In this document: positions 24,946 to 52,202 of the stretch, in pieces | Position numbering within the stretch: position 1 is the first letter of the stretch | Layout: each line of letters opens with the position of its first letter | Source: Bacteroidales bacterium | Lineage (GTDB): Bacteria > Bacteroidota > Bacteroidia > Bacteroidales > Bacteroidaceae | Assembly (NCBI GenBank): GCA_012729225.1 | Contig: JAAYDO010000179.1 | Coordinates: forward strand, 1 to 54,738 | Reading direction: 5' to 3' | DNA length: 54,738 nucleotides | The notes under the pieces: generated by a model | The model's input: only the letters and a program-made list of their open reading frames with translations | Told to the model about the DNA's origin: nothing | Database searches by the model: none | Made by a program: the position numbers and the translations under genes

Positions 24946-25057
24946 AAAAATGAAGCATTGTGCGTTGTCCAACGCACAATGCTTCGTTGTCCAATGAACA
25001 ATGTTTCGATGCCCAACGCACAATGCTTCAATGCCCAATGAACAATGCTTCATTTTT
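24946..25057. repeat. Intergenic 22-bp tandem repeat with inverted flanks (copy A)
   Basis: Four direct 22-bp units run at 24970-24991, 24992-25013, 25014-25035 and 25036-25057, with consensus CAAYGMACAATGCTTCRATG plus CC. An inverted copy precedes them, so GAAGCATTGTGCGTTG (24952-24967) and its exact complement (24970-24985) form a 16-bp palindrome with a 2-nt centre. AAAAATGAAGCATTGT opens the element and its complement closes it. A related array lies at 46505-46614. Confidence 0.85.
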
Positions 25058-25404
25058 GCTCCAACAAAGGCTCTTTTTCGGGTTCTCCATAAAACATTGT
25101 AAATCAGAAAAGTATGTCAGCCCTTAGCAGGCGTCCTGCCAGAAATCCCCCATGGAGCAGAAAATATGGACTCATAAGCCTCGGCAACTTTGTTGAACCC
25201 ATTTTATTCGCATCACACACAACAAAGAAGTCCCTGCAATCAGCATGCAACCTCCTCCTCCTTTCAGAATCCTTCAAACTCACTTTAATTATCTCTTCTT
25301 AACGTTTTACAGCAAAAAAACACTCCTAATTAACCTGTTTTGACTCAAAAGTATCGCTGAATTGTTAAAAAACGGGCTGATTGAAATTCTTTTGTTTTTT
25401 TTTG

Positions 25405-25569: not shown

Positions 25570-28425
25570 ATGTTGTATAACTTTCAGAGGAAAAAACTGT
25601 GCAGTCATCTCTTGGTAGGAGGTGCACTGTGTGCTGCAGCCTTTGGCTTGTTCTCTTGTTCTGACCGTTATAACTTAGATGAAGACCAGCCTTCCAACTT
25701 GGACAACATCTATGGTTATATGCAGCGCATGGGTAACTTCACCAATTATCTGCATCTGATCGACGACCTTGGACAGAAAGAGATTCTTTCCAAGACCGGT
25801 AGTAAGACAATGTTTATCGCTGACGATGATGCATTCGCTGCTTTCTATGCGTCAAATCCTTGGGGTGTGAAGAACTATTCAGACCTCTCTTTGGCACAGA
25901 AGACACTGTTGCTCAACACGTCAATGATCGACAACCCGTATTCTACGACGATGATTTCATCGGCGCAGTCTCCAGGTACAGGTCGTCCAGCCAAAGGTGA
26001 AGTGTGCCGTCGTGCCACTTCCATGTCTTTGCTCGACTCTGTAACAGTGGTCACTGCTCAGAATGCGGACAAGGTGCTTCCCAACAATGCTGCTTTCAAT
26101 GAGCTTCGTGCCAACTACAGCAATCAGGATAAGCCTTTCGTCCTTTACACCGATGCGTCAAACCCATCCCCAATGCTTCATTTCACGGGTAAGTTTGTTA
26201 CATCAAACCAGTTGAGCTTTAGCGACATCGACTTCATCTACAATCAGAGTGAAGGCACATTCAAGTCTGACGACATCTATGTCAATAACTCTCGTGTGAT
26301 TGCAGCAAACGTTTTCTGTAAGAACGGTTTCGTTCATCAAGTGGACAAGGTGCTCATGCCGCTGGACAACATGTCTGAAATCATCCGAAAGAATCCTAAG
26401 ATGTCCACATTCAGTAGCATCATTGAGCGTTTTGCTGCTCCAAAGGATTCTATCGCATTGCGTGAAACATACAACAGAGCAAAGGGTACAGACTATGACT
26501 CAGTGTTTGTCAAGAGATATTTCTCTGACCGTTCCTTCGGCTCAACCATGGCTACCAGTGTACCGTTCACATATGACAAGAACGGCAACACATACGACGG
26601 TGCGCTGAAGTTCGACCCAGGATGGAATGGTTATATTCCAGAGGTGGCCAACGACCGTCAGCCTATGATGGAGGATATGGCTATCATGCTCGTACCTTCA
26701 GACCAGGCATTCAACGAGTGGTGGACTGGTGGTGTCATCGAGAAGTACTATCGCACAGTGGAGAATACCCCAAGTTCTGTGCTTGACGACCTTGTCCGTG
26801 TCAATCAGATTCAGGCCTTCACCTCATCCGCTCCTTCCAAGTTCGGCGCAGTGCTCAACGATGCCAATGAGCCTCTTGGAATCACAGCAGAAGATGTGGA
26901 TAGCGTTTATCTCGGTTGCAACGGTCTTGTCTTCTTGACCAATAAGGTATTTGCACCAGCATCTTACTCTTCAGTTCTCTTCCCAGCAGTTGTGGACAAG
27001 GATCGCTTCACAGTGATGGACAATGTCATCACTCCGATGAACTACAACTACTACCTCAACTCAATGGTTTCTCGTTTCGTGTTCCTGCTCCCAACCAACA
27101 ACGGTCTCTTGACTTACATCGACCCTGTTTCTTATGGACAGACAGTAAAGAGAATGTGGGAATTCAAACTCGACGAGAAGCAGCAACTCATTGCTGACGT
27201 TTACGAGTGCGACGAGAATGAAGACGGCACATTCACAAAGAGATCTGGAACACCATTCCAGATTAAGGGTGGTGTAAATAACAGCATTCTGAAGAATCGT
27301 ATGACAGACCTTCTCGACAACATTATTGTTGTAGAGCCTTATCAGGAAGGAAAGAAGTACTATAAGACAAAGGGCCGCACATTCGTGAGGATTGAGAAGA
27401 AGGCTGCCAAGACCTATGATGTTTATGGTTCTTATCAAGAAAATATCGGACAGCCACTTCAGTCAAATGATGCTTACGATGGTTCTGATATCCGCAACGG
27501 TATCACCATTCCATTGGACGGCATTGTGATGGGCACTCCAAATTCAGTTGCCAAGACACTCTACGATGCAGTGGTTGATGGCGACTCCATCTTCAAGGAG
27601 TTCTATGGTATTGTCGAGGCTTGTGCTGTAAGCAAGACCAACTCAAAGAACAAGTGGCAGGCTGCTGATCAGATTCACGGCAACCTCTTCAACGAGAAAG
27701 AGCCTGGTCTGATTGGTTCTCAAGACGCCAAGACCATCAAGGCTACATACTTGCTCAACAACTATCATTATACTGTATATGCTCCAACAAACGAGGCAAT
27801 GCAGGAAGCCTATGCAGCAGGTCTTCCAACATTGGCAGACCTTGAGGCAGCCGAATTGTATGATGAAGAAATGGGCTACACTTCTGGTGCAACAGCAGAA
27901 GAAAGAAGAAAGTCTCGTGCAGACTCTCTCCGTGAGGTGATGCTCGACTTCGTGAAATATCATATTCAGGACAACTCTATCTTCGTTGATGTAGATACCG
28001 CAGGTAATTTTGAGACAGCAAAGACTGAGATGATCAAGTCTATGGTTGTTGATGAATCTACTGGCGAAGCAACTTGGGGCGGTAAATATGCTCCAGGACG
28101 TCCTTACAAACTGAAGGTTCAGGTTGCTGGTGGTCAGATGACCGTGACAGACTGTCGTGACGGAAGTTCATCCAACCCACAGGGAAATACCGCAAACGTT
28201 GTGATAAAGGAAGGTGCTTACAACTTGATGGCTCGTGAGTATTGGCTTGATAGCGGAAGCACAATCACTAATCCAAACAGTGTCAATCTCAACAACTCTT
28301 CAGCAGTTGTCGTTCATGGAATCAATCATCCATTGATTTTTGCTGATGGTAAACATCAGGATTCTAATGGACAGTTGATTGAATCTCAGTTCACTTATTC
28401 TTACAAGCAGCTCACATCAGAATAA
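25570..28425 (+). CDS. Large FAS1 (fasciclin)-repeat lipoprotein, first gene of the FAS1-SusCD operon
   Basis: A 951-residue lipoprotein; the lipobox ends at C30 (AAFGLFSC). Four FAS1-like units can be traced by their TxFxxxDxAF-type strand and the closing NGxVHxVD-type strand: about 55-265 (TMFIADDDAFAAF; NGFVHQVDKVL), 275-460 (IMLVPSDQAFNEW; NGLVFLTNKVF), 480-590 (FVFLLPTNNGLL; LLDNIIVVEP) and 690-930 (YTVYAPTNEAMQEA; VVVHGINHPLIF). FAS1 domains are protein- or sugar-adhesion modules; in this setting the protein probably works on the cell surface with the SusCD pair. The next gene, SusC, begins 11 nt after its stop. Ligand unknown. Confidence 0.85.
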   Translation: MLYNFQRKKLCSHLLVGGALCAAAFGLFSCSDRYNLDEDQPSNLDNIYGYMQRMGNFTNYLHLIDDLGQKEILSKTGSKTMFIADDDAFAAFYASNPWGVKNYSDLSLAQKTLLLNTSMIDNPYSTTMISSAQSPGTGRPAKGEVCRRATSMSLLDSVTVVTAQNADKVLPNNAAFNELRANYSNQDKPFVLYTDASNPSPMLHFTGKFVTSNQLSFSDIDFIYNQSEGTFKSDDIYVNNSRVIAANVFCKNGFVHQVDKVLMPLDNMSEIIRKNPKMSTFSSIIERFAAPKDSIALRETYNRAKGTDYDSVFVKRYFSDRSFGSTMATSVPFTYDKNGNTYDGALKFDPGWNGYIPEVANDRQPMMEDMAIMLVPSDQAFNEWWTGGVIEKYYRTVENTPSSVLDDLVRVNQIQAFTSSAPSKFGAVLNDANEPLGITAEDVDSVYLGCNGLVFLTNKVFAPASYSSVLFPAVVDKDRFTVMDNVITPMNYNYYLNSMVSRFVFLLPTNNGLLTYIDPVSYGQTVKRMWEFKLDEKQQLIADVYECDENEDGTFTKRSGTPFQIKGGVNNSILKNRMTDLLDNIIVVEPYQEGKKYYKTKGRTFVRIEKKAAKTYDVYGSYQENIGQPLQSNDAYDGSDIRNGITIPLDGIVMGTPNSVAKTLYDAVVDGDSIFKEFYGIVEACAVSKTNSKNKWQAADQIHGNLFNEKEPGLIGSQDAKTIKATYLLNNYHYTVYAPTNEAMQEAYAAGLPTLADLEAAELYDEEMGYTSGATAEERRKSRADSLREVMLDFVKYHIQDNSIFVDVDTAGNFETAKTEMIKSMVVDESTGEATWGGKYAPGRPYKLKVQVAGGQMTVTDCRDGSSSNPQGNTANVVIKEGAYNLMAREYWLDSGSTITNPNSVNLNNSSAVVVHGINHPLIFADGKHQDSNGQLIESQFTYSYKQLTSE

Positions 28426-28436
28426 TCGTTCAGAAT

Positions 28437-31400
28437 ATGAAAAAAATAATATCAATCTTCATGCTTTTAGTGTGCTTCTGCATTCAGGCAAGTGCACAAG
28501 TAAAGGCGGGCGACGTGGTCAGCGGTCAGGTTTGGGATGAACTTGAGCCTCTGATGATGGTTAATGTTGTGGAAGTTGACCATAATGGACGTATCGTTGC
28601 CCATGGTACTACCGATATCAATGGTAACTTCTCTTTCAAGATCGTTAATCCAAAAAACAATATCCGAATTTCCTATGTCGGTTGTCAGACCGTGAATCTG
28701 CCCATCACAAAGCGTGCCTTTGGCAAAATCACCTTGAGGAGCGCTAACACGATTCCAGCAGTCGTTGTGAAAGCAGTACGCAAGAGTCAAAGTACAGGTC
28801 TTTCCATCCCTATGACGGAGATTTCTACAGCATCTCAGACCATCGACATGAAGGAGTTTGAGGGTATTGGAATGACATCGGTCGATGAAGCCCTTCAGGG
28901 TCGTATTGCTGGTTTGGACATCGTAGCCAATTCTGGTGACCTTGGAGCAGGAACATCTATCCGTCTCCGTGGTGTATCAACCATTCATGGCAACCAGAAC
29001 CCTCTGATTGTTGTCAATGGAAACCCTATCAAGTCTCCAGGTTCAGACGAATTTGACTACAACAATGCCAACGATGAGCGTTTTGCCGAACTCTTGCAGG
29101 TAAACCCAGAAGACATCGAGTCTATCACTGTCCTCAAGGATGCTGCCGCTCAGGCTATCTGGGGCTCTCAGGGTTCTAATGGTGTCATTGAGATCAAGAC
29201 AAAGCGTGGTGCTAGGGGTAAGACCAGAGTAAGCTACAAATACACTCTTAATGGCAACTGGATATACAAGCGCTATAAGCTGTTGAATGGTGATGACTAT
29301 ACCATGTATATGAAGGAGGCATACTTCAATCCTCGTCAGGAGTCAAGTTTTGCTGACAAGTCATCCAATAGCTTTATTCCAGAAATTGCCTATGCACCTG
29401 AATGGGCAGAATATCACATGTATAACGACAACACCGACTGGGTGGATGCCGTTACCAAGTTTGGTGTTCAGCATTCACACACTGTGAACCTTTCTGGTGG
29501 TGGTGAAAAGGCTCTGTTCCGTGTGTCTGGTCGATATGACACTCAGAACAACTACATCATCAAGCAAGGCATGGATCGTCTTACTACAAATGTTGCGCTC
29601 GACTACAAAATCTCAGACCGTATCAAGGTTACTACCAACTTCGACTTCAACTATACCAACCGTGACCTCCACAACACTGGAGATGCCATCGGTGTGGCAC
29701 AGCGTAAGATGCCTAACCTCTCTATCTATCGTGAGGATGCCAATGGCAATGACACTGGCGAGTTCTACACCATGAACAGGTGGATTACCAAACAAACAGG
29801 TGTTTATGCTGCCAGCAGTTATTTGGATGACCAGTATGACTTGAAGAATCCTGTGGCTGTGGCTTACAACTCTGAGCAAAAGACAAAGCAGTTGGTTGTT
29901 CGTCCTGAATTCCTTTTTGATTATAAAATCTTGGGAACTCAGCCCAACCAGCACCAATTGGACTATAAAGGCCAGATTCGTTTCGACATCAATGACAGTG
30001 AGAACAGCAGTTATATGCCAGGCTGGCTGTCTTCTGTCAGCATGTTCGCCTATGTTGGTTCGAATAATCTGAATAGAGATGCCTATAATACATCAAGTGC
30101 CAGCAGTAGTAAGTCTCACAACATGACAACCTATCACCAGCTGACTTTTATTCCTCATTTCAAGAATGAAGGACATTCTTTGATGCTGATGGGTCGTTAT
30201 GACTACGGAACAAGCAATAGTTCCAGCAATAGCACTGGTAAGCACATGATGCCTACTACTGCCGACATCACTTCAACACTTGCTGGTGGTGTCATCCGTA
30301 CATTCGATTCGGGTGCTGGTCATGGAAAAAGCCAGAACCTCACTTTCCAGGCTCACTACTCTTACAAGAGCCGCTACACTTTGACTGGTGTGCTTCGTGG
30401 TGACTGTACTACCGCTTTCGGTCCTTCACGTCCTTGGGGATTCTTCCCTGCATTGTCTGGTCGTTGGAACATTTCTAACGAGCCATTCATGGAGAGAGTG
30501 AAATGGATTTCCATGCTGTCAATTCGTCCATCTTGGGGTTATGCAGGAAACGCACCTGGTGGAGACCTTTGGCGTTCTAAGTATGGCAACGGTCCAAGCT
30601 ACATGGGCGGTGCTTCTGTGGCTCCAGGCAACATTCGTCTTGCAGGTCTGAGATATGAAAAGAAAGTCTCTTATCAGGTTGGTTTCGACTTCGGATTCTT
30701 TGACGATATGCTGACTGCTAACATCGACTTCTACACAGCCAAGGTGACGGATCTGCTGCAGAGAAACTACGGCATCCCATCATCTTCTGGTTATTCTTCT
30801 TTGAGTTACTACAATGATGGCTCTATGCGAAATGAAGGTTTTGAGTTTAATATCAATGCTCGACAACTCTTCAAGAAGGGTGATTTCTGGGTGGATCTCA
30901 ATGCGTCATTCGCTAACAACCGCAACCGCATATTGTCTATGGACCCTACTTGTCTTGAGACTTTTAATAATGAATACAACTACAGGAATGGAACATATCT
31001 TTCACGTGTTCAGATCAATAACCCATTGAACTCTATCTATGGATTCCGTTACAAGGGTGTTTACGCTTACTCAGAGTATTCAGAAGAAGAGGTGGAAGGC
31101 TTGAGCGGTCCAAACTCTCCAATTGTCCGCAATGCCAAGGGCGAGCCTATCTTCGACTCAACAGGTGCTCCTAAGATGATGTACTTCAACTATGGCGGTG
31201 CTAACCAATATGCATTTGTTGGTGGTGATGCCATCTATGACGACATCAACCATGATGGTCAGATCAATGAGTTGGATATTGTTTATCTCGGTTCTTCTCT
31301 TCCAAAGATTACGGGTGGATTCGGTACGAGATTCCATTATAAGGGTTGGGAACTCAACCTCCAGTGGAACTTCCGTACAGGATTCAAGGTGATGAACACG

Positions 31401-31802
31401 GCTCGTATGAATCTGGAGAACATGTCGAACAACAACAACCAGTCAATTGCAGTGAACTGGCGTTGGCACAATGAAGGTGATATCGCACCACTTCCACGTG
31501 CTGCTACAACAAGGACACAGTTTGACACTTACAACTATTTGGGTTCTGACCGATTTGTGGAAGATGCTTCTTTCCTTCGTCTGAATTACTGCCAGTTCTC
31601 TTATTCTTTCCAGAGAAAGCAACTTCAGAAGATTGGTCTGAGTTCCGTTCGTCTCAATCTTACCCTCAACAACATTCTCTGTCTGACTAAGTATTCAGGT
31701 CTTGACCCAGAGCATGCTGCTAACGGTTATGCGGGAGCTACGGATGGTAATACAAACCCACGTTCACGTTCGTTCACGTTCGGTTTAAATGTTTCATTCT
31801 AA
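28437..31802 (+). CDS. SusC/RagA-type TonB-dependent outer-membrane transporter (first copy)
   Basis: A 1121-residue outer-membrane protein with a signal peptide (1-20, QASA|Q). A carboxypeptidase-regulatory-like domain (about 25-105) precedes the TonB plug (about 125-260), which has the SusC signature VNPEDIESITVLKDAAAQAI and GSNGVIEIKTKRG. The 22-strand barrel runs to the C-terminal FTFGLNVSF, ending in Phe as usual. It should import a ligand too large for porins, delivered by the SusD partner, using energy from an ExbBD-TonB system. No TonB-box anti-sigma extension is seen. SusD follows 19 nt after its stop. Confidence 0.95.
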   Translation: MKKIISIFMLLVCFCIQASAQVKAGDVVSGQVWDELEPLMMVNVVEVDHNGRIVAHGTTDINGNFSFKIVNPKNNIRISYVGCQTVNLPITKRAFGKITLRSANTIPAVVVKAVRKSQSTGLSIPMTEISTASQTIDMKEFEGIGMTSVDEALQGRIAGLDIVANSGDLGAGTSIRLRGVSTIHGNQNPLIVVNGNPIKSPGSDEFDYNNANDERFAELLQVNPEDIESITVLKDAAAQAIWGSQGSNGVIEIKTKRGARGKTRVSYKYTLNGNWIYKRYKLLNGDDYTMYMKEAYFNPRQESSFADKSSNSFIPEIAYAPEWAEYHMYNDNTDWVDAVTKFGVQHSHTVNLSGGGEKALFRVSGRYDTQNNYIIKQGMDRLTTNVALDYKISDRIKVTTNFDFNYTNRDLHNTGDAIGVAQRKMPNLSIYREDANGNDTGEFYTMNRWITKQTGVYAASSYLDDQYDLKNPVAVAYNSEQKTKQLVVRPEFLFDYKILGTQPNQHQLDYKGQIRFDINDSENSSYMPGWLSSVSMFAYVGSNNLNRDAYNTSSASSSKSHNMTTYHQLTFIPHFKNEGHSLMLMGRYDYGTSNSSSNSTGKHMMPTTADITSTLAGGVIRTFDSGAGHGKSQNLTFQAHYSYKSRYTLTGVLRGDCTTAFGPSRPWGFFPALSGRWNISNEPFMERVKWISMLSIRPSWGYAGNAPGGDLWRSKYGNGPSYMGGASVAPGNIRLAGLRYEKKVSYQVGFDFGFFDDMLTANIDFYTAKVTDLLQRNYGIPSSSGYSSLSYYNDGSMRNEGFEFNINARQLFKKGDFWVDLNASFANNRNRILSMDPTCLETFNNEYNYRNGTYLSRVQINNPLNSIYGFRYKGVYAYSEYSEEEVEGLSGPNSPIVRNAKGEPIFDSTGAPKMMYFNYGGANQYAFVGGDAIYDDINHDGQINELDIVYLGSSLPKITGGFGTRFHYKGWELNLQWNFRTGFKVMNTARMNLENMSNNNNQSIAVNWRWHNEGDIAPLPRAATTRTQFDTYNYLGSDRFVEDASFLRLNYCQFSYSFQRKQLQKIGLSSVRLNLTLNNILCLTKYSGLDPEHAANGYAGATDGNTNPRSRSFTFGLNVSF

Positions 31803-31821
31803 TTTTATAAGGCTTAAAGTC

Positions 31822-33738
31822 ATGAAAAATATTAAAAATAAAATATTCTCGGCTGTTGCAATTGTGGCTGCGGGATTTGGCTTCAGCTCTTGCGATATTG
31901 ACTTGCTTCCACTGAACGAAGTTGTGTATGAAAACTTCTGGACGGACAAGAGCGATGTTGAGAGTGTGGTGTCCGCATGCTATGGTTCTTTCCAAGATGA
32001 CAATTATGTGACCCGCTTGATTGTATGGGGCGAAGACCGTTCAGATAATGTGACGGCTGGTCAAGAACTATCTAACGACTTGCGTTTCTTGCTGAAGGGT
32101 AGTGTGAAAACCACCAACTCATTCTGTGACTGGAGTTCTATCTATCAGACAATCAATTATTGTAATGTGTTGTTGTTTGAAGCTCCAAAGGTGAAGGAAA
32201 AAGACCCTAACTATACGGAGTCAGATTATCGAATCAATGTGGCGGAGTGTTCATTCATTCGTGCATTCTCTTATCTCACATTGATCAAGACGTTCCGTGA
32301 TGTTCCTTTCTCCTTCGAACCATCATTGGATGACACTCAGACTTACCGTCTTCCACAGACCAAGTTCGAGGTTATTCTTGACACTTTGATTCAGGACATC
32401 GAAGCATGCAAGAGTTATGCTCCTCTTCGTATCAATAACCAGACATTGAAGAAGAACATTGATAATACCCAGAACACGGGGCGTGTGACTCGACCTGCCA
32501 TGTATGCATTGCTGGCAGAACTTTATTTGTGGCGTGCATCTGACTATAGACTGTCAAAGGCCGAGCAGAATGAGTACTATAAGAAATGTATCGAATGCTG
32601 CGACTGGATTGTCGCTTACAAGGTGCAGCGTTATAACGAGGGTGATGTAAAGGAAGACATTGACCAGGAAGTATATAGGGAATATGGCTACCCATTGTTG
32701 GCTGAAGAAGTCACTGTAGGTCAGAATGAATCTGGTCCGGCGGCTTACAATGCTATCTTTGGCGATGGTGCTTCTTTTGAATCTCTCTTTGAACTTTGCT
32801 ACTATAACAATGTGAGAAATGTACAATACAAGGAGAATAAAGCTGTTCGTACTATGTATGGTAAGGATTCACGTACTCAGAACGTGAAAGCACATGAGAG
32901 TTTGTTTGAGTCAAAACCACAATCTACAGATAAATATTCTGATAGCAAATTGTTCTCTGTGCCTTCAGACTACCGTATGCTCACTTCTTTCTACTATAAT
33001 GAGGAAAATGGTGTGTCTTACATCTACAAGTATGCAATCCGTGAAAACGAAGCAGGTGCATCATCTTATACATCGTATTACGGAAGTGTTGGTTCTGCTT
33101 TTGTGGCGCCAAGAGAAACTCAGTCTTATTCAAGCATAAGTCCAAACTGGATTATTTATCGCTTGACCGAAATCATGCTGTTCCGTGCTGAAGCAGAAAT
33201 AGAATTGGCTTTCAATATGGACGCTGCTGAAAGTGAGCAGAGTGCTGAAGGGTCTTCTTCTGAAGAAGATGAATCTGGCATACAGCCAGCACCCGTGAAG
33301 AAGCAGGCTAAGGCTCTTCAGCTTCGTGGTGCTTCTCTTGCTTCTGCACAGGAATTGAAGGATGATGCTTTCAACCTCATTTCAGCGGTTTACCGCCGTT
33401 CTAATCCTGCGGTGAAGACAAGGACACAGTATGCTCCAGAACAGCCTTCTACTTATGCAGGTTACCACACTCTTTTGATGAATGAGCGCAGACGTGAGTT
33501 CCTCTTTGAGGGTAAGCGTTTCTACGATTTGGTTCGTTCTGCAAGACGTGTTGGTAATACTCAGGAACTGCGTCAGGCATTGGCTACCAAGTACAGTGAG
33601 GCTGGTCCAGCTGTTTCTATTAAGCTTTACCAGATGGGTTTCATGTACATGCCTGTTGCAAGAAGAGAAATAAAGATAAACCCTGCTCTTGTCCAGAACG
33701 AAAGTTATTTGGATGAAGACGAAAACAAAAAACAATAA
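31822..33738 (+). CDS. SusD/RagB-type surface lipoprotein (first copy)
   Basis: A 638-residue lipoprotein starting MKNIKNKIFSAVAIVAAGFG, with a lipobox at GFSSC (C24). The start at 31822 is preferred to 31789, which overlaps the SusC end and adds 11 residues before the signal. TPR-type helices of the SusD fold appear at FIRAFSYLTLIKTF and ALLAELYLWRASDY. The C-terminal LLMNERRREFLFEGKRFYDL motif is diagnostic. Residues about 460-510 are an acidic, Ser/Glu-rich low-complexity insertion before the last helices. Partner of the SusC just upstream as the lid of the transporter. Confidence 0.95.
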   Translation: MKNIKNKIFSAVAIVAAGFGFSSCDIDLLPLNEVVYENFWTDKSDVESVVSACYGSFQDDNYVTRLIVWGEDRSDNVTAGQELSNDLRFLLKGSVKTTNSFCDWSSIYQTINYCNVLLFEAPKVKEKDPNYTESDYRINVAECSFIRAFSYLTLIKTFRDVPFSFEPSLDDTQTYRLPQTKFEVILDTLIQDIEACKSYAPLRINNQTLKKNIDNTQNTGRVTRPAMYALLAELYLWRASDYRLSKAEQNEYYKKCIECCDWIVAYKVQRYNEGDVKEDIDQEVYREYGYPLLAEEVTVGQNESGPAAYNAIFGDGASFESLFELCYYNNVRNVQYKENKAVRTMYGKDSRTQNVKAHESLFESKPQSTDKYSDSKLFSVPSDYRMLTSFYYNEENGVSYIYKYAIRENEAGASSYTSYYGSVGSAFVAPRETQSYSSISPNWIIYRLTEIMLFRAEAEIELAFNMDAAESEQSAEGSSSEEDESGIQPAPVKKQAKALQLRGASLASAQELKDDAFNLISAVYRRSNPAVKTRTQYAPEQPSTYAGYHTLLMNERRREFLFEGKRFYDLVRSARRVGNTQELRQALATKYSEAGPAVSIKLYQMGFMYMPVARREIKINPALVQNESYLDEDENKKQ

Positions 33739-33744
33739 CGTGTT

Positions 33745-35865: not shown

Positions 35866-35874
35866 TATAATCAT

Positions 35875-35910
35875 TTAGCTTATCTTGCCACTTTCGGCAA
35901 GATAAGCTAA
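35875..35910 (+). promoter_or_regulatory. Perfect 15-bp hairpin between the two halves of the FAS1-SusCD operon
   Basis: TTAGCTTATCTTGCC (35875-35889) pairs without mismatch with 35896-35910 around ACTTTC. It begins 10 nt after one gene's stop and ends 17 nt before the next ATG. No T-run follows on the plus strand. It may be an RNA-stability or processing element setting different levels of the two modules. Confidence 0.7.
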
Positions 35911-35927
35911 CAACAAAAGAAAGAATT

Positions 35928-37853
35928 ATGAATAACATCAAAAATACATTCCGTGCGGGATTTGTGATGGCAGCAGGACTTATTGCGATGTTCTCATGTA
36001 CTGATACATGGGACGATCACTACAGCTCAAGCTTAGGCTCACTCAAATTCAATGGCACAACGATGCAGGCATTGGAAGAAAACGCTCCCGACTTTGCTAA
36101 GGTTGTGAAGGCTTACGGATTTGACCGCGAACTTTCTTCTGACAACACCTATACTGTATGGGCTCCTGCAGATGGCTCTTTCGATCTCTCTGAATATGTT
36201 GGTCAGAATGGTGAAAGAGTGGCTGATTCCACAGAAGTGGTGACCCAGTTCATCAAGAATCATATTGCACTTTATTCCATGTCGCTCACACCCAACGACC
36301 AGAAGTTCAGTTTGCTGAATAAAAAAGTGGGAATTATGTCGGCAAGTGGTGAGTTTGGTCATGTCAAGATAGATGCAGAAAAGCATAATATCTCTTGTTT
36401 AAATGGTATTATCCACATGGTTGATGCACCATCTCCTTATTCTTACAATCTCTTTGAGATGATTGCGAAGCAGTATAAGGATGACACGACTGAGGGCAAA
36501 GATACTCTTTCGCTTTATGCTTATCTTTATGACGATAGAGTGAACAAGGATACACTGATTGAAAACAAGTCTGTTAGCCGTGGTGTGGATGAAGACGGTA
36601 ACAAGATTTGGGTGAGCAAATACTTCGAGAAGAACAATACAGTGCTGAAGAACTTTGATGCTCGTCTCTATGAGGAAGACTCACTCTTTATCGCTATCAT
36701 CCCATCTGCAAAGGCTTGGGCAGAGCGTTATAAGAAGGCTTTGAGTTTGGTGAAGTTCAATCCATCAGAGGATACTCGTGCTGCGGGTACTGTCGATTCT
36801 TTGACTCGTCACTATGCTAACTCTTTTGCAATGACAGACTTGTTCTACAACAAGAATGCCAATGAGTACTGGCAAGACTCTTTGAAATCAACGAATTATT
36901 ATACTTCTTGGCATAGTGCGGCAGATTGGCCAAACCATCTCTATTACAGTGTAATGCCTAAGTATTTGCCTCGTGACAAGGAAATTAATGATATTCTTGC
37001 AAAATGTGGTGAGCCTATAGAATGTTCAAATGGTACTGCTTATATCGTGGATGAATATCCATTCACTGCCATAGAGCAATTTTTCTATAAAATGACATAT
37101 TATGTAACAGAAAGTCTTGTTAATAAGTTGGGCTCAGGCGATACTTGGACTTATACCAAGGGTGTGTCAAAGACATTTGCTTACAGGGGCGGTACTTTCT
37201 CTCATCGACTTCCTGTCTATGATGAGGATGGAATAGCAATAGGTGACACTGTTCGTCGTCAGACATACAATTATGTGGATTTCATTCCAACCAGTGGTAA
37301 CATCACTGTTGCCTTCAATTTAGCAAACACCCTTTCCGGTACTTATGACATTTATCTTGTAGTAGCTCCTATGTGGATGAAGCAAGACTACAACAATCTT
37401 TCTGTTGCTGATTGGGATGCTCGTCCTTATCGTTTCACCGCTTCCATCTTTGAGCGTGCAAATGATCCTTCAAAACCAAAGGAGTTGGGACAGTTCCCTA
37501 CAAAGGGTGAAGTTCTCAACAATCCTACTCCTGTAGCAGGAGAGAAGGAGAACATTTTCCTTTCAAAGGGTTTGTTCACTGATGATTATGGATTCCTTGG
37601 CGTAAATGATACAATCAGTTTGGGCTCTTATACTTTCAAGAACGCATACTATGGACGTCCTGAATATGGAGCAATGCTTCAGATCCAGTCTTCAGTGCTT
37701 TCAAGCAAAAGAAAAGAGTTCTCTAACGAAATGCTCATTGGTTCCATCATCTTGAAACCACGTGACGGAGAAGCAAAAGAGGTTGTTGCAGCACCTGCTG
37801 CAGCTAAAATGAGAAAAGGTAACGAGTTGACAACTTCTAATAAAAGTAAATGA
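35928..37853 (+). CDS. FAS1-domain lipoprotein opening the second module
   Basis: A 641-residue lipoprotein with C24 in IAMFSC. Two FAS1 units: about 40-165 (YTVWAPADGSFDLSEY; LNGIIHMVD) and 170-380 (LFIAIIPSAKAWAERY; NGTAYIVDEYP). The remaining 260 residues form a further beta-rich region (YVDFIPTSGNITVAFNLANT; GTYDIYLVVAPMW; EMLIGSIILKPR). The C-terminal end is basic and Ala-rich. Its stop overlaps the next SusC start (ATGA), which suggests translational coupling. The FAS1-SusC-SusD order repeats that of the first module. Confidence 0.82.
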   Translation: MNNIKNTFRAGFVMAAGLIAMFSCTDTWDDHYSSSLGSLKFNGTTMQALEENAPDFAKVVKAYGFDRELSSDNTYTVWAPADGSFDLSEYVGQNGERVADSTEVVTQFIKNHIALYSMSLTPNDQKFSLLNKKVGIMSASGEFGHVKIDAEKHNISCLNGIIHMVDAPSPYSYNLFEMIAKQYKDDTTEGKDTLSLYAYLYDDRVNKDTLIENKSVSRGVDEDGNKIWVSKYFEKNNTVLKNFDARLYEEDSLFIAIIPSAKAWAERYKKALSLVKFNPSEDTRAAGTVDSLTRHYANSFAMTDLFYNKNANEYWQDSLKSTNYYTSWHSAADWPNHLYYSVMPKYLPRDKEINDILAKCGEPIECSNGTAYIVDEYPFTAIEQFFYKMTYYVTESLVNKLGSGDTWTYTKGVSKTFAYRGGTFSHRLPVYDEDGIAIGDTVRRQTYNYVDFIPTSGNITVAFNLANTLSGTYDIYLVVAPMWMKQDYNNLSVADWDARPYRFTASIFERANDPSKPKELGQFPTKGEVLNNPTPVAGEKENIFLSKGLFTDDYGFLGVNDTISLGSYTFKNAYYGRPEYGAMLQIQSSVLSSKRKEFSNEMLIGSIILKPRDGEAKEVVAAPAAAKMRKGNELTTSNKSK

Positions 37854-40800
37854 TTATGCAGCACTTCAATAAATACGGAATCGCAGCACTCATGTTCTTC
37901 CTTGGAACAGCACTTCCAGCCGTTGCACAGGATGAGGTGGAAGATGAGGTAGTAGAGGAGGAGGTACTTGCTCCTGTAAAGAAAATCAAGCCAGCGAAGA
38001 CTTATCCTACTATTGATGTGAAGGGTAAAGTTGTTGATGCAGTCACAGGTGAACCACTTTCTGGTGTTCAGTTGCAGGCTTTCAACAATAGATATTATAC
38101 AGCCATGACAGATGAGAACGGTGAATACACCATTCAGGTGCCTAAGTTCATCACTGCTCTTTCTGCCAGACTGCAAGGCTACAATCTGAATAATGTGTCC
38201 ATCAATGGTCGTGCTACTGGAGTGAACATAAGTTTGTATCCAGACATGCTTAAAGTGGATTACACAGAGGATGCTTCCGCAAGAAAGAATATCAAAACAG
38301 AAGACTTCGGCACTTCAACAGCACTGACTATTGATCAGGAAATTCAAAACCGCTTTGGTGCTGATGTGAGAAGTGTTCAGCGTTCAGCCAATCCAGGACA
38401 GGGCGTTGCCATGTTCATCAATGGTTTGAATTCTCTGAATTCCAATGCCATGCCTATGATTGTGTTGGATGGAGTGATCTATGATCCATTGTATGACGCC
38501 AAGATGATTCACACAGGTTACTTCAACAACTTGTTGCAGGCAATTAATCTCAATGATATTGAATCGGTAGAGGTACTGAAGAATGGTACGGCAATCTATG
38601 GCTCAAAAGCAGCGAATGGTGTCATCTTGATCAAGACCAAGCGCTGTCGCTCTATGGCTACTCGCATTGATGTGGATGTCAATGTAGGCTTAGAGGCTGC
38701 ACCTAAGACGATAGATCTGATGAATGCAGGCCAGTATCGTTCTTATGCATCAAACCTCCTTCAGACAACCAATACGACCTTGACAGAGTTCAAGTTCTTA
38801 AACTCTGATCCAGACTTCTATTATTATAATGTATATCATAATAATACTGATTGGAACAAGGAAATATCCAGAACAGCACTTACTCAGAACTATGGCATCT
38901 CTATTCAAGGTGGTGATGATATTGCTCAGTACAACCTTTCTGTAGGTTATGGTGATGCGAAATCAACCTTGAAGAAGAATGACATGCAGCGTTTCAATAT
39001 CCGATTCAATACAGATATTGTGCTCAACAAGTGGTTTTACACCAAGTTTGATGCAAGTTATGCAAACGTGACCCGCGACTTGAGAAGTGATGGATGGGCT
39101 AATGGCCAATATCTTCAGGCATTGGCTTCTCCATCGGCTTTGGCCAATATCAAGGCTCCATTCTTGAGTCCTTTTGATTTTGCAACGAATCGTCAGGTGA
39201 CCAATTACATTGCTGATGCAGATGACTACCTGAACGAAGTTTGGGGTAACATCAACACAAACCGTGCTCAGCTTGCCAATCCTATGGCTATTCTGGAGTA
39301 TGGCGAGGCAAAGAACAAGAACCACACCGACTGTACAATGTTGAATGTGTCTATTGCTCCAACTTGGGAACCAACAAAAGATTTCTCTTTGACAGAATCT
39401 TTCAGCTACACAATCCAAAGTTTGGATGAATCCTACTTCACTCCAATCGTTGGTATGCCAACTTACACTCTTCCTGGCAACCTTGATGAGACACAAAACT
39501 CTAAGTACTCCATGTTCTCAAGACACAATTCTGTGTTCTCTGACACACGTGCCAATTGGAACATCCTTCCTAATGGTGCACATCGCCTTGGAGTGTTTGG
39601 TGGTATTCGTTTCATGAATGACACTTATAGAGCTTCTTTCCTTTACGCAGATGGTACAGGTAGTGATAAGACTCCTAACACGGGTAGCAGAAACCGTAAG
39701 ATTGATGGCTCTGACACCAGTTGGAATTCTCTCTCTTACTATGCCAATGCAGACTATAACTATCAGGAGAAGTATTATCTCACTGGTCAGCTGACTGTGG
39801 AAACTTCTTCACGTTTTGGTAAGAACGCAGGTAATCTTCACATGTTTGGTGTGGCTTGGGGCGTCTTCCCTTCCATTCAGGGTGCTTGGGTTCTTTCAAA
39901 TGAGAACTGGTTCAAGGCAAACAACTATGTGAACATGCTGAAGATCAGTGGTGGTTTTGAGTCTGTGGGCAACGATGCAATAGACAACTCTGCAACCCTT
40001 ACTTACATGGCTTCAGAGATGATGTTTGGTCAAGGAGTATCTTCTGTTGGCTTGTCCAACATCGGTAGTTCTTCTCTTCAGTGGGAAACAACCAATCGCT
40101 TCAATGTAGGTCTGGAGGGTAACTTCTTCAACAACCACTTGAACTTGAGAGGTAATGTGTTCTTCTCAAAGACCAACAACCTGATCACTATGGGTAGTTT
40201 GGCATACGTGGCAGGTCTTCCATCTACATACACCAACGATGGTTCTTTGAAGAACAATGGTTTTGATGCTGCTTTCAATGCAAAGGTAATCAACAACAAA
40301 AACTTCAAGATGGAAGTGGGTGCCAGCATTGGTCACTACAAGAACCAATTGACTCGTCTGCCTGAGGGTAGAGAATCTTTTGAGACCACACTCTATGGTG
40401 GCACAGTCCTCTCCAAGGTTGGTGAGAGCGCAGGTGTTTTCTACGGCTACAAGACTGATGGTGTTTACAAAGACACCGAAGAAGCTAATGCAGCTGCTCT
40501 GTACTACCTTGACCAATCCAACAATAAAGTTTACTTCGGTGCTGGTGACATGAAGTTCGTTGATATGGATGGAAATAACGAAATCAATGCCAACGACCGT
40601 ACCGTGATTGGTAATCCTAATCCAGACATCTTTGGTAATGTAAACCTGAACTTCCATATTGGTCAAGAGTGGACATTGTCCACTAACTTCAACTATTCTG
40701 TAGGTAACGATATTTACAACTACCAGCGTTCTGTGCTTGAGGGTGGTTCAAACTTCCTCAACCAGACTACTGCTGTAACACGTCGTTGGACAACAGAAGG

Positions 40801-41113
40801 TCAGGAGACAGACATGCCTAAGGCTGTATATGGTGACCCTATGGGCAACAGCCGTTTCTCTGATCGTTGGATTGAGGATGGTTCTTTCTTCAAACTGAAG
40901 AATGTCACCCTTTCATACAAGGTGCCAATCCGCAACGAGTATATTCAGGGCATGACAATTTGGGCTGCTGCTAACAATCTCTTTACTTTGACCAAGTATC
41001 TGGGTACAGATCCAGAAGTGTCTTGTGGCAACTCTGTCCTTCTTCAGGGTATTGATGCTGGCTACCGCACTTCAGGTCGCAGTTTCCACCTTGGTGTTAA
41101 GATTAACCTCTAA
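37850..41113 (+). CDS. SusC/RagA-type TonB-dependent outer-membrane transporter (second copy)
   Basis: A 1087-residue outer-membrane protein with a signal peptide (PAVA|Q, about 1-26). A short, very acidic stretch (EVEDEVVEEEV) comes next, then a carboxypeptidase-like domain (about 55-130) with VKGKVVDAVTGEPLSGVQLQ. The plug (about 150-275) contains INLNDIESVEVLKNGTAIYG and ANGVILIKTKR. The barrel ends in FHLGVKINL, Leu-terminated rather than Phe-terminated. Start ATG overlaps the upstream stop; an ATG at 37856 is also possible. It differs clearly from the first SusC, so this is not a recent duplication. Confidence 0.95.
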   Translation: MIMQHFNKYGIAALMFFLGTALPAVAQDEVEDEVVEEEVLAPVKKIKPAKTYPTIDVKGKVVDAVTGEPLSGVQLQAFNNRYYTAMTDENGEYTIQVPKFITALSARLQGYNLNNVSINGRATGVNISLYPDMLKVDYTEDASARKNIKTEDFGTSTALTIDQEIQNRFGADVRSVQRSANPGQGVAMFINGLNSLNSNAMPMIVLDGVIYDPLYDAKMIHTGYFNNLLQAINLNDIESVEVLKNGTAIYGSKAANGVILIKTKRCRSMATRIDVDVNVGLEAAPKTIDLMNAGQYRSYASNLLQTTNTTLTEFKFLNSDPDFYYYNVYHNNTDWNKEISRTALTQNYGISIQGGDDIAQYNLSVGYGDAKSTLKKNDMQRFNIRFNTDIVLNKWFYTKFDASYANVTRDLRSDGWANGQYLQALASPSALANIKAPFLSPFDFATNRQVTNYIADADDYLNEVWGNINTNRAQLANPMAILEYGEAKNKNHTDCTMLNVSIAPTWEPTKDFSLTESFSYTIQSLDESYFTPIVGMPTYTLPGNLDETQNSKYSMFSRHNSVFSDTRANWNILPNGAHRLGVFGGIRFMNDTYRASFLYADGTGSDKTPNTGSRNRKIDGSDTSWNSLSYYANADYNYQEKYYLTGQLTVETSSRFGKNAGNLHMFGVAWGVFPSIQGAWVLSNENWFKANNYVNMLKISGGFESVGNDAIDNSATLTYMASEMMFGQGVSSVGLSNIGSSSLQWETTNRFNVGLEGNFFNNHLNLRGNVFFSKTNNLITMGSLAYVAGLPSTYTNDGSLKNNGFDAAFNAKVINNKNFKMEVGASIGHYKNQLTRLPEGRESFETTLYGGTVLSKVGESAGVFYGYKTDGVYKDTEEANAAALYYLDQSNNKVYFGAGDMKFVDMDGNNEINANDRTVIGNPNPDIFGNVNLNFHIGQEWTLSTNFNYSVGNDIYNYQRSVLEGGSNFLNQTTAVTRRWTTEGQETDMPKAVYGDPMGNSRFSDRWIEDGSFFKLKNVTLSYKVPIRNEYIQGMTIWAAANNLFTLTKYLGTDPEVSCGNSVLLQGIDAGYRTSGRSFHLGVKINL

Positions 41114-41125
41114 TTTGTATCAATC

Positions 41126-43231
41126 ATGAAAATGAAATCTATTATAAAATGTGGTTTGCTCCTGCTTGCAATTGGAGCATCCACAGTGTCATGCGAGGAC
41201 ATGTTTACAGCAGACAATACGTTGGTGACCACCAACCTCGCACCACAGGATACCCTTTATCAGATGATGGGCATCATTAAGCGTATGCAGAAATTGGCAG
41301 ACCGCACAGTGCTGTTGGGTGAGGTGAGAGCAGACCTTGTTGATGTGGACCCTATCCATTCAACAGTTGATCTTCAGGAACTCGCTGCCAACAATGTTTC
41401 TTTAGAGAACATCTACAATCAGCCAGATGACTACTATGGAGTAATCAACAGCTGTAATATCTATTTGGCGAATGTGGATTCAATGCGCAATTCTCAGGGT
41501 ACTCGCAAGTACTTTGAGAAGGAAATCCTTGCAGTGAAGAGTTTTCGTGCGTGGTGCTATCTTGAACTGCTGAAGCACTATGGCGAAGTTCCTTACGTGA
41601 GAGAACCCGTCTTGACCTCTGATCAGGCAAAGAACATTGTTGCTTCAGGCAAGAAAGAGAACATGGCTACTATCTTGACAGACATGATTAATGATCTCAA
41701 GAACTTCCGCGCAACCGAGAACAATGATTTAATTCATACTTATGGTAACGGTTTGACGTTTAGGAGTATTAAACTTAGCCAAATGTTCATCCCTGTTCGT
41801 GCGCTGCTTGCCGAACTCTATTTGTGGCGTGGGTCTTATACAAATAGCCAAGAGGATTATATCAATGCCATTCGCATGTATCACGACTTCTTCACATTCC
41901 CTGGTGAGGAGATTGCGACAGGCGACTACCGTGTTGAGTGGACTTCTCGCACCGCTTCTCGCCCAACTTATACATCAATATACAATGGACTCTTCACTGC
42001 TTCCACTCTCTGTGCGGGTGTTTTGCCAATGGAAAGCTCTGCTTTCTATGGAACAGTTTCAAACCTGAAGAACATTTTCTGTTCTACAGACTCCAACAAC
42101 TACTATCCTGCAGTTATGGCTTCAAAACGTGCTAAAGACATCTCTAATGCTCAGGATTATTGCCAGTTGATCTTAGGAAGTGGTGGTCTACCAGAGGTCT
42201 ATATGCGTGAACATGATGCCAATCTCTATTCAGACTATCCAACCATGGAAGGTGACTTGCGCCTCTATTCCGTTTCTGATGGAACTGAGAATGTAGGAGA
42301 CAACTCTTCCAACAGTCGTGAGAATAGTAGTTACAATAGAATGTACTACTTGAATCAAAAATATGGAGACAACACCAATGGTAACGCCTATCCGTCTTAT
42401 ATCCCATACTTCCGCTACAATATTCTGTACCTGCATTTTGCAGAGGCACTCAATCGTGGTGGTTTCCCAGAGACGGCTTTCGCAGTCCTGAAGTATGGTT
42501 TGTCTCACTACATCATGAGCAACCGTAACATCATCTCTCAGGATGAGTTCGATCGTCTTTGCCTCATCACTTCTTTGGGCTTCACGGTTCAGGAGCCTAA
42601 GTACACAGGCGAGTTGTTGAGCAAGACTACAGGTACTGCAGTCATTTGGAGTTCTGACGTGTTCGCTACTCGTACATTGATTTCTATGGATCAGGTGAAT
42701 CCAAGCATACAGAATGAAGGTGGCAATAGATTGCAGGTAGGTATTCATTCTTTAGGTTGTGGCAACACAGAGTATGATGAAAACTACTACCTTGATGATG
42801 CCGAAACCAAGGCAGGTCTGAAGGTTCATGTGGATTCTATCGAATGGGAAGAAGTTCCAAGATTGTCCAGAACATCTACTCATGAGGATTCTGTAGAATA
42901 TGACCGTGTCGTTGCTTACAACAAATGGGCTGCTGCTGAGAATATTCAGAAGAGAGACAGTGTTGATTCCTACAATGTAGCATATCTCGCATCTGACAAT
43001 ATTCGTGCAAAGCGTCAGGCTCGTGTGGCTCAGTTGATTCTTGAGGAAGAGGCTTTGGAGGGAGTGTTTGAGGGTCACCGCTTCTACGACATCATGCGTT
43101 ATCAGATGCAGGAGAAGGGTGGTGCGGCTCTTGGTTCAACCATCACAATGCCTGCATACATTGAGGATAAGTATGGCGCAACAACCAAGATGGTTGGCAA
43201 ACCATGGTTCTTGCCATTGCCCACAAGGTAA
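41126..43231 (+). CDS. SusD/RagB-type surface lipoprotein (second copy)
   Basis: A 701-residue lipoprotein with C23 in ASTVSC. SusD-type helices are visible at EILAVKSFRAWCYLELLKHY and PVRALLAELYLWRGSY, with YNILYLHFAEALNRGG farther on. The C-terminal EEEALEGVFEGHRFYDIMRY motif is diagnostic. It is longer than typical SusD proteins because of extra sequence at about 480-640. It follows SusC by 12 nt and ends the operon, before a strong terminator. Confidence 0.94.
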   Translation: MKMKSIIKCGLLLLAIGASTVSCEDMFTADNTLVTTNLAPQDTLYQMMGIIKRMQKLADRTVLLGEVRADLVDVDPIHSTVDLQELAANNVSLENIYNQPDDYYGVINSCNIYLANVDSMRNSQGTRKYFEKEILAVKSFRAWCYLELLKHYGEVPYVREPVLTSDQAKNIVASGKKENMATILTDMINDLKNFRATENNDLIHTYGNGLTFRSIKLSQMFIPVRALLAELYLWRGSYTNSQEDYINAIRMYHDFFTFPGEEIATGDYRVEWTSRTASRPTYTSIYNGLFTASTLCAGVLPMESSAFYGTVSNLKNIFCSTDSNNYYPAVMASKRAKDISNAQDYCQLILGSGGLPEVYMREHDANLYSDYPTMEGDLRLYSVSDGTENVGDNSSNSRENSSYNRMYYLNQKYGDNTNGNAYPSYIPYFRYNILYLHFAEALNRGGFPETAFAVLKYGLSHYIMSNRNIISQDEFDRLCLITSLGFTVQEPKYTGELLSKTTGTAVIWSSDVFATRTLISMDQVNPSIQNEGGNRLQVGIHSLGCGNTEYDENYYLDDAETKAGLKVHVDSIEWEEVPRLSRTSTHEDSVEYDRVVAYNKWAAAENIQKRDSVDSYNVAYLASDNIRAKRQARVAQLILEEEALEGVFEGHRFYDIMRYQMQEKGGAALGSTITMPAYIEDKYGATTKMVGKPWFLPLPTR

Positions 43232-43270
43232 GTTTTTGCCTCCTTCGAGGCTGTTAAATCAGTAAAGAAA

Positions 43271-43306
43271 GGAAGTCTGGAGCAGAAATGCTTTAGACTT
43301 CCTTTT
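43271..43306 (+). terminator. Rho-independent terminator of the FAS1-SusCD operon
   Basis: A 14-bp stem (two G-T pairs) closes on a GAAA tetraloop (43285-43288) and is followed directly by a run of T. It begins 39 nt after the last SusD stop. Confidence 0.92.
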
Positions 43307-43325
43307 TTAGTTCAACTATTTTATC

Positions 43326-49601: not shown

Positions 49602-50228
49602 ATGGAAGAACTCAGTATTCTTGAGCTCGCGGAGAGAGGTGGATGGATCATGATTGTCCTTGCAGTCCTTTCTGTCATAGCAGTGTATATTTTTGTAGAA
49701 CGTTTCATCGCTATCCGCAATGCGGGCAAGGATGATAAACTCTTCATGGATCGTATTCGTGACTACATCAAGAATGACGACATCAAGTCAGCCATCAATT
49801 TCTGCCGTGTCACCAATACTGCCGCGGCTCGCATGATTGAGCGTGGAATCAGCCGTATGGGCAAGCCTGCGACAGAAATCCAGACAGCCATAGAGAATAC
49901 GGGCAATCTGGAGATTGCAACCATGGAAAAGCGTTTGCCTGTGTTGGCAACCATTGCTGGTGGAGCTCCCATGATAGGTTTCCTGGGCACTGTGATTGGT
50001 ATGGTGGAGGCTTTCTGGCAGATGAGCAATGCTGGTGGCAATGTTGATATCAGTGTTCTTTCTGGTGGCATTTACCAGGCAATGATCACGACTGTGGGTG
50101 GATTGATTGTGGGTATTGTCGCTTTGTTCGCCTACAACTATCTTGTGGCAAAAGTGGATAGCGTGGTGAATGAGATTGAAGCGAAGTCGCTCACATTTAT
50201 GGACATTGTTAGCGAAGAAGAGCAGTAG
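49602..50228 (+). CDS. exbB: ExbB/TolQ-family proton channel protein
   Basis: A 208-residue inner-membrane protein of the MotA/TolQ/ExbB family. Three transmembrane helices are visible: about 14-33, 120-145 (IAGGAPMIGFLGTVIGMVEA) and 160-185 (AMITTVGGLIVGIVALFAYN). With ExbD it uses the proton-motive force to drive a TonB-type protein. First of a three-gene set; exbD follows after 3 nt. Confidence 0.93.
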   Translation: MEELSILELAERGGWIMIVLAVLSVIAVYIFVERFIAIRNAGKDDKLFMDRIRDYIKNDDIKSAINFCRVTNTAAARMIERGISRMGKPATEIQTAIENTGNLEIATMEKRLPVLATIAGGAPMIGFLGTVIGMVEAFWQMSNAGGNVDISVLSGGIYQAMITTVGGLIVGIVALFAYNYLVAKVDSVVNEIEAKSLTFMDIVSEEEQ

Positions 50229-50231
50229 CCT

Positions 50232-51630: not shown

Positions 51631-51632
51631 CT

Positions 51633-52175: not shown

Positions 52176-52202
52176 TCATTCAGAGAATATTTGAGAAGAA
52201 CC

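Follow-up and report, generated by a model that had tools for sequence, protein, structure and literature searches.

A conserved cassette of three FAS1 lipoproteins and two SusCD pairs, the probable core of a Sus-like glycan uptake system in Bacteroidales

The window analysed here is a stretch of 54,738 nucleotides (contig JAAYDO010000179.1 of assembly GCA_012729225.1, positions 1 to 54,738, forward strand) from a Bacteroidales bacterium that is related to rumen fibre degraders. The assembly has 2.89 Mb in 213 contigs and a completeness of 88.8%. At 25570-43231, seven open reading frames (ORFs) lie on the plus strand in the order F1-C1-D1-F2-F3-C2-D2, which is FAS1, SusC, SusD, FAS1, FAS1, SusC, SusD:

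25570..28425, plus strand: F1, FAS1 lipoprotein, 951 residues (PF02469, E 1.8e-13 at residues 170-264)
28437..31802, plus strand: C1, SusC-type TonB-dependent transporter, 1121 residues (TIGR04056, 660 bits; Plug domain)
31789..33738, plus strand: D1, SusD-type lipoprotein, 649 residues by the longest ORF (PF07980, E 2e-16; PF14322, E 1.4e-10)
33745..35865, plus strand: F2, lipoprotein with a predicted FAS1 pair and C-terminal CBM6/35-like beta-sandwich, 706 residues (PF02469, E 3e-12; AlphaFold2 and Foldseek; lipobox Cys26)
35928..37853, plus strand: F3, lipoprotein with a predicted FAS1 pair and C-terminal CBM6/35-like beta-sandwich, 641 residues (PF02469, E 1.7e-6; AlphaFold2 and Foldseek; lipobox Cys24)
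37850..41113, plus strand: C2, SusC-type transporter, 1087 residues (TIGR04056, 562 bits)
41126..43231, plus strand: D2, SusD-type lipoprotein, 701 residues (PF07980, E 1.9e-11; PF14322, E 6e-6)

The gaps between these genes, from F1 to D2, are 11, -14, 6, 62, -4 and 12 nt. The gene order and the tight spacing given in a first-pass annotation were confirmed by the ORFs, Pfam and NCBIfam, no gap exceeding 62 nt. The three FAS1 proteins scored 51.2, 47.3 and 28.7 bits with PF02469, above the gathering score of 22 that places a protein in the family, and were the only proteins of the window genome that matched it. In both pairs the SusC gene is adjacent to the SusD gene, the arrangement by which a polysaccharide utilisation locus (PUL) is recognised. 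C1 and C2 are 25.7% identical over 1053 columns, and D1 and D2 27% over 185 columns. Inside 25570-43231 no glycan-degrading enzyme was found in the ORF list or with Pfam. No hybrid two-component system (HTCS) regulator and no extracytoplasmic function (ECF) sigma/anti-sigma regulator was found in the 17 window proteins scanned, all of which lie between 16240 and 50225. The earlier statement that no enzyme is present therefore holds for the seven genes and less well for their surroundings, where a glycoside hydrolase (GH) protein is encoded upstream on the same strand:

21914..24832, plus strand: GH43, GH43_C and LamG protein (Pfam) between rplQ and F1, 737 bp before F1

The conservation of the cassette was followed through the family, the order and the phylum. 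Relatives of F1 (E 1e-40) were found in 129 of the 201 family genomes and in 16 of 30 genera, and relatives of F2 (E 0.001, weak FAS1-only matches counted in) in 144 of the 201 and in 18 genera. The named-genome sample comprised the best 80 of 519 F2-encoding stretches; their titles read Bacteroidales, Prevotellaceae or Bacteroidaceae, and most are metagenome bins, many from rumen or herbivore gut. The complete seven-gene order was present at 42 of these loci, with median intergenic gaps of 6 to 31 nt, whereas 31 had a lone F2-like gene and 7 were partial (six end at contig ends, and L113 has no second half). Within the window's genus, a single genome can have as many as three F1 genes. Among 12 stretches around further F1 copies of the family, seven had the full order, two were canonical but cut and two were without F2 (L191, L192). 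In one cut stretch three F2-like genes follow each other in one cassette (L194:2736-9076).

In the order, F1 was matched in 47 of 393 genomes, and the matches below E 1e-60 span ten family labels including the window's. The 20 stretches sampled around such matches plus one weak match (L135 and L136 are from the window's family) gave the canonical seven-gene order 12 times, under eight family labels and once with an extra F2. Three had F2 ahead of F1, one was without F2 within the stretch, one was a tandem double cassette with F2 displaced, two were cut but consistent, and the weak match showed an F1-like gene only. The order is thus kept beyond the window, as the first-pass annotation had proposed to check, and a chance cluster of ORFs is ruled out. 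Wherever they were present in these stretches, the C1 and C2 genes each gave a far better score with their own profile than with the other. Since they keep their own profiles throughout, the two SusCD pairs are, judged by sequence, an old and fixed duet, in agreement with one of the earlier suggestions for the two strongly different SusC proteins, that they are old duplicates. In the phylum, no further full-length F1 was found among 395 genomes; at E 1e-10 eight genomes were matched, one being the window's, and in the other seven no single match covered more than about a third of the profile.

The chromosomal seat is also conserved. Of the 12 upstream stretches that were informative, 11, representing four genera (g1, g19, g21, g29), have rpoA/rplQ ahead of the cassette, with zero to four ORFs between rplQ and F1. 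The exception is genome G044 of genus g17; the stretches of L131 and L124 were uninformative. An upstream rpoA was also seen at the named loci L039, L073, L082, L085 and L089. A mobile or phage origin was considered and rejected, as a scan of viral contigs gave no relative and the seat is fixed.

The FAS1 proteins were then characterised by modelling and alignment. The AlphaFold2 models had a mean predicted local distance difference test score (pLDDT) of 84.3 for F2 and 82.9 for F3. With both models Foldseek retrieved the tandem-FAS1 proteins TGFBIp, periostin and fasciclin I and, at lower rank, beta-sandwiches of the carbohydrate-binding module (CBM) type, namely CBM35, CBM6 and MiXBM. For F2 these were CBM35 2w1w (E 7.5e-4) and 4qb2 (E 1.3e-3), and for F3 GH26-CBM35 3zm8 (E 6.6e-4) and CBM6 5fui (E 4.9e-3). 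The matches include the CBM35 of Xyn30D, for which a complex with glucuronic acid (GlcA) exists. The CBM-like matches were placed in the C-terminal third by the strand pattern of the models, not by reported alignment ranges, and the Pfam CBM families gave no match in F2 or F3 at E 0.01. The name fasciclin-repeat protein, used before, fits the F2 and F3 models, which match FAS1 pairs, but not the Pfam result of one FAS1 domain per cassette FAS1 protein. A profile-profile alignment of F2 with F3 extends over 456 columns.

F1 was aligned from the window and 34 of the 42 complete loci (A4), and a FAS1 match was present in all 35 rows. The F3 alignment (A3, 41 rows) comprised the window and 40 of the 42 loci. 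For F2, 26 rows were aligned in A1, and A2 comprised the window, 32 of the 42 cassette F2s and 9 of the 31 orphans, with L065 and L073 (short or split F2 ORFs) omitted. The lipobox cysteine was kept in 42/42 rows of F2 (Cys26), 41/41 of F3 (Cys24) and 34/35 of F1, where one row has a gap. In F2 it is followed mostly by S-D-D or D-D-D, and by K-D-D in the window, a motif that we take to resemble the Bacteroidetes surface-export signal. All three FAS1 proteins are presumably located at the surface. Because a FAS1 pair and a CBM6/35-like beta-sandwich are combined with a conserved lipobox, F2 and F3 look like surface glycan-binding lipoproteins on an unusual scaffold. The FAS1 proteins are likely ligand-capturing parts, as had been suggested earlier. 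The lone F2 genes of L090, L092 and L075 align to F2 from about residue 196 onward; each is followed by a related protein of 715-730 residues, and that of L090, when scanned, had no Pfam match.

We interpret the cassette as the core that binds and transports glycan in a Sus-like uptake system with its enzymes detached, a PUL of the (glucurono)xylan type that serves enzymes in trans, and give this reading a probability of about 0.6. Of the three FAS1 lipoproteins, F2 and F3, with their predicted FAS1 pair and CBM-like beta-sandwich, would hold the polysaccharide on the outside of the cell. Each SusD lid would hand oligosaccharides to its own SusC barrel, and the barrels would import them using TonB energy. 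The substrate is probably a GlcA-decorated xylan or another acidic glycan of plant cell walls that resembles it, and most of the cleavage would fall to enzymes that are encoded elsewhere in the same genome and would be served in trans. The first-pass annotation had instead placed the FAS1 proteins in the role of the enzymes, for a cargo that needs no cleavage. This was not sustained, since in other families the cassettes have glycoside hydrolases, polysaccharide lyases (PLs) and HTCS regulators as neighbours and the window genome has xylan enzymes elsewhere. The flanks were read with Pfam on hand-chosen proteins (sets of 10, 9 and 8, plus 59 of 112 listed); one HTCS was confirmed in the set of 9, and 4 of the 59 near-flank proteins were HTCS. 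Away from the cassette, the window genome has four GH115 matches, one GH67 match and six GH10 match rows on four contigs. Its GH8 is 82% identical to a GH8 linked to an orphan F2, and its GH43 is 76% identical to the GH43 beside the lone F2 of L083. A lone F2 was also sought beside the GH8 of the window genome, and there is none.

The connection to xylan comes from related cassettes and from lone F2 genes. Trees were built without cassette rows below 600 residues, orphan F2s below 550 residues and distant matches below 150 bits or 500 residues. In the F2 tree the window lineage has 71 tips including offshoots of lone F2 genes (support 0.97), and it joins a second cassette lineage with a support of 1.0. 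In this second lineage, 5 of 6 assigned cassettes have GH67, GH115, GH30 or GH43 in the flanks read, and none of the four was seen in those of L185:

L186 flanks: GH115, GH67
L187 flanks: GH115
L134 flanks: GH43, GH115, GH67 and a GH30-like gene
L136 flanks: GH30, GH115
L138 flanks: GH67

Distances of enzyme genes to F1 were counted on the rows listed in F1-bearing genomes, which for F1, GH115 and GH28 are the best rows. Of the 54 GH67 genes listed, 8 were no more than 5 kb from an F1, against about 0.37 expected; for the GH28 control it was none of 50 listed rows, and none within 25 kb either. In the window's genus, a lone F2 gene and a GH8 are divergently arranged in 9 of the 31 orphan loci, and the orphan-linked GH8 that was tested best matches reducing-end xylose-releasing exo-oligoxylanases. 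GH30 is present in 4 of the 31; for the GH30 that was tested, the best matches were xylan and glucurono(arabino)xylan xylanases. In genome G014 a lone F2 lies between GH30 and GH8, and this GH30 is 53-59% identical to a gene adjoining D2 in G033. In a Bacteroidaceae bin, a protein of 1100 residues with a dockerin type I domain is encoded near a lone F2 and an HTCS (L083:17297-20599), possibly a cellulosome-like part.

The separation of transporters and enzymes was examined in the window genome and its genus. The SusC and SusD profiles of the cassette gave no match in the stretches with GH10, GH67, GH115 and GH43 of the window genome (C212 1-40000, C108 16100-95700, C18 1-20000, C113 1-8000); contigs C86 and C2 (GH10) and C62 (GH30) lie outside the stretches covered. 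With the same profiles, SusCs unrelated to the cassette were picked up elsewhere at scores of at least 187 bits. The window genome has at least five SusC matches, two of them in the cassette, and its nearest relatives have 5 (G014), at least 4 (G063), 4 (G081) and at least 5 (G141). Up to 23 SusC candidates were scored per genome, which took in all those of G014, G042, G081 and G098. Nine other genomes including the window's (23 of 24) are short by a few, so that their counts are possibly slightly low, and the counts for SusC-rich genomes are lower bounds. Across 13 genomes of the genus, the SusC total minus two per F1 is 2-3 in eleven, 4 in G197 and 6 in G155, and genomes with more F1 genes also have more SusC genes (Spearman 0.95, 13 related genomes). 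Two SusC per F1 make up 52 of the 91 SusC genes, provided that each F1 stands for a complete cassette. The other three SusC loci of G014 are found with a Met-zincin peptidase, with a Na+/H+ antiporter, and with an antiporter and a serine dehydratase, a fucosidase being on the opposite side.

Several observations weigh against this interpretation. Unrelated SusDs score low with the cassette SusD profiles (12-45 bits), one non-cassette SusC locus of G014 is near the fucosidase, and in G155, of the window's own genus, a SusC adjoins the GH67. The whole-query TM-scores of the F2 and F3 matches are low, because the domains match singly. The grouping of the window and second lineages has a support of 0.38 in the C1 tree, and L193, with no xylan enzyme in view, falls in the second lineage in the F2 tree and in the window lineage in the C1 tree. 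The eight GH67 neighbours are not eight independent events, as they come from only two genera (g19, g22), neither of them the window's. GH115, tried as a cargo marker, proved weak, with 3 of 94 listed rows within 5 kb of F1 (p 0.03) and 6 of 94 within 25 kb (p 0.13). A GH43-like ORF is the commonest filling between rplQ and F1 (22 of the 42 complete loci by best match, some at 25-34% identity), so that the surroundings are often not wholly enzyme-free; being common but not constant, this neighbour is not counted in the unit. Before F1 of L076, L095 and L112, proteins with CotH kinase and DUF4859 are found in this slot. Other cassettes adjoin PL11, GH39, GH28, GH51 or PL-like genes, so the cargo varies among cassettes, and for this reason the assignment of xylan, drawn from neighbourhoods, is held at roughly even odds.

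An importer of the same kind could carry another plant glycan, such as pectin/rhamnogalacturonan I (RG-I), arabinan or arabinogalactan, or several glycans, and this is the most serious competing explanation, although we consider it clearly the less probable one. The GH43 protein directly upstream in the window has arabinanases as its nearest NCBIfam models (below their cut-offs), the slot beside F1 varies (empty, different kinds of GH43 proteins or CotH/DUF4859 proteins), and PL11, GH28, GH39 and GH51 adjoin related cassettes. Against this, the neighbourhoods of the second cassette lineage and of the lone F2 paralogs speak for xylan enzymes, and the GH28 control stayed at zero, though a weaker GH28 adjoins one distant cassette (L152).

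A fibre-attachment machine, in which the FAS1 proteins are adhesins and the SusCDs secondary, is improbable. Matches of the FAS1 pairs to TGFBIp, periostin and fasciclin I would fit it, as would the accessible part of PMC10199937, where adhesion is inferred for a Bacteroidota symbiont from the transcription of a FAS1 gene. It leaves the strict linkage to two SusCD pairs and the SusC count that tracks the F1 count unaccounted for. RagAB-like uptake of peptide or protein captured by the FAS1 proteins is weakened to a very unlikely reading. In its favour are the RagA structures among the SusC matches and the fact that FAS1 domains are protein-interaction domains in animals; against it are the CBM-like C-terminal domains of F2 and F3, the carbohydrate enzymes recurring beside cassettes and a Met-zincin peptidase that adjoins a different SusC of the window genome. 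Such a peptidase (DUF4953/5117/5118) lies directly beside SusC at L218:4893-7502 in a relative and at L221:4047-6623 in the window genome, each a candidate peptide SusCD.

The reading of the cassette as a glycan transport core can be extended to the window's clade. Glycan SusCD transport may there have collapsed to one FAS1 cassette beside the ribosomal operon, which would serve several xylan loci without SusCD in trans, the F2 copies at enzyme loci of sister genomes being plug-in adaptors that bring the products of each locus to a common gate. We offer this as a speculative proposal that is rather unlikely to be correct in full; if true, it would break the rule of one PUL, one SusCD. PUL substrates are usually predicted from the enzymes adjoining SusCD. 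Transporters and most enzymes seemingly lie apart in the window genome, and such a prediction therefore fails there. An ancient class of FAS1-CBM surface proteins, linked throughout Bacteroidales with two SusCD pairs, would be a new component of the PUL toolkit. Fibre degraders in which SusC genes are few allow a direct test of the import range of one cassette.

The cassette was compared to known systems. Surface glycan-binding proteins (SGBPs) in the SusE position are multi-domain lipoproteins beside SusD with a carbohydrate-binding-like last domain; F2 and F3 are alike in this, but use a FAS1 pair. The SGBP models of Pfam and NCBIfam gave no match in the cassette proteins at E 0.01. Among solved SusC structures, those closest in sequence to C1 and C2 are 8aa4, 5t3r, RagA and BT_2264, all of them distant. 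We take 8aa4 to be the SusC of a dextran system and 5t3r that of a levan system, and we know of no FAS1 protein in any of the four complexes.

In the accessible parts of PMC7848910 and PMC8002723, the Xus system of xylan users (xusABCD-xusE-xyn10C, Prevotella/Bacteroides) has two SusCD pairs and surface binding proteins. The cassette also has two pairs with putative surface binding proteins, but here the FAS1 genes flank and separate the pairs, no enzyme or regulator is in the unit, and xusE-xyn10C does not follow. Xus is defined by a contiguous xusA-xusB-xusC-xusD, then xusE and xyn10C; in the window two FAS1 genes stand between the pairs, and a terminator and a PPDK_N gene come after D2. According to the part of PMC4491172 that is accessible, the xylan loci of Bacteroides ovatus contain GH30, GH95, GH115, GH67 and GH10. 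The families of PUL-XylL (GH30, GH95, GH115) and PUL-XylS (GH67) recur near related cassettes or lone F2s; unlike the window cassette, these PULs have enzymes and SusCD in one locus, and fasciclin or FAS1 does not appear in the accessible main text (PMC4491172). No account of fasciclin/FAS1 proteins as PUL components was found in the open-access literature searched, subscription papers being outside that scope. The only paper found with fasciclin/FAS1 as well as SusC and SusD, PMC10199937, treats them separately in its accessible part. The cassette thus varies the Sus/Xus theme by a FAS1-CBM scaffold undescribed in the open-access literature searched and by a genome layout with detached transporters.

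Signals for transcription were searched around and within the cassette, and two structures were found:

43265..43308, plus strand: intrinsic terminator after D2, a hairpin into a U tract, read by eye (-28.6 kcal/mol, z -8.3)
35875..35910, plus strand: hairpin between F2 and F3, 15-bp stem and 6-nt loop, no T tract following (-23.6 kcal/mol, z -7.4)

The first bears out the single strong terminator of the first-pass annotation; a simple hairpin scan had missed it because its loop limit was 8. The upstream promoter candidate did not stand, as sigma-70-like matches were at shuffled level (37 found, 35.4 expected). A conserved promoter was also considered and dropped, the upstream regions being too divergent among relatives for such a claim. 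The second hairpin splits the operon into F1-C1-D1-F2 and F3-C2-D2. Of 43 F2-F3 gaps, 28 were folded, the remainder being under 25 or over 300 nt. With mononucleotide shuffles z was below -3 in 15 of the 28 and not in 13; the L065 entry among the 28 is in fact the tail of a truncated F2 ORF. As the stems differ in sequence among the gaps with z below -3, the results suggest that structure is kept here rather than sequence. The hairpin may determine how much of one half-operon is made relative to the other, or may tune or protect the upstream message.

A strong hairpin was also found between the GH43/LamG gene and F1, where a cluster of related repeats (AACGCACAATGCTTC-like units) lies at 24952-25060 (fold -40 kcal/mol, z -5.2). 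Downstream of D2 the terminator is followed by the gene of the PPDK_N protein. At 49602-52868, about 6 kb past the cassette, a MotA/TolQ/ExbB gene and then more ORFs are found, possibly a TonB energiser cluster.

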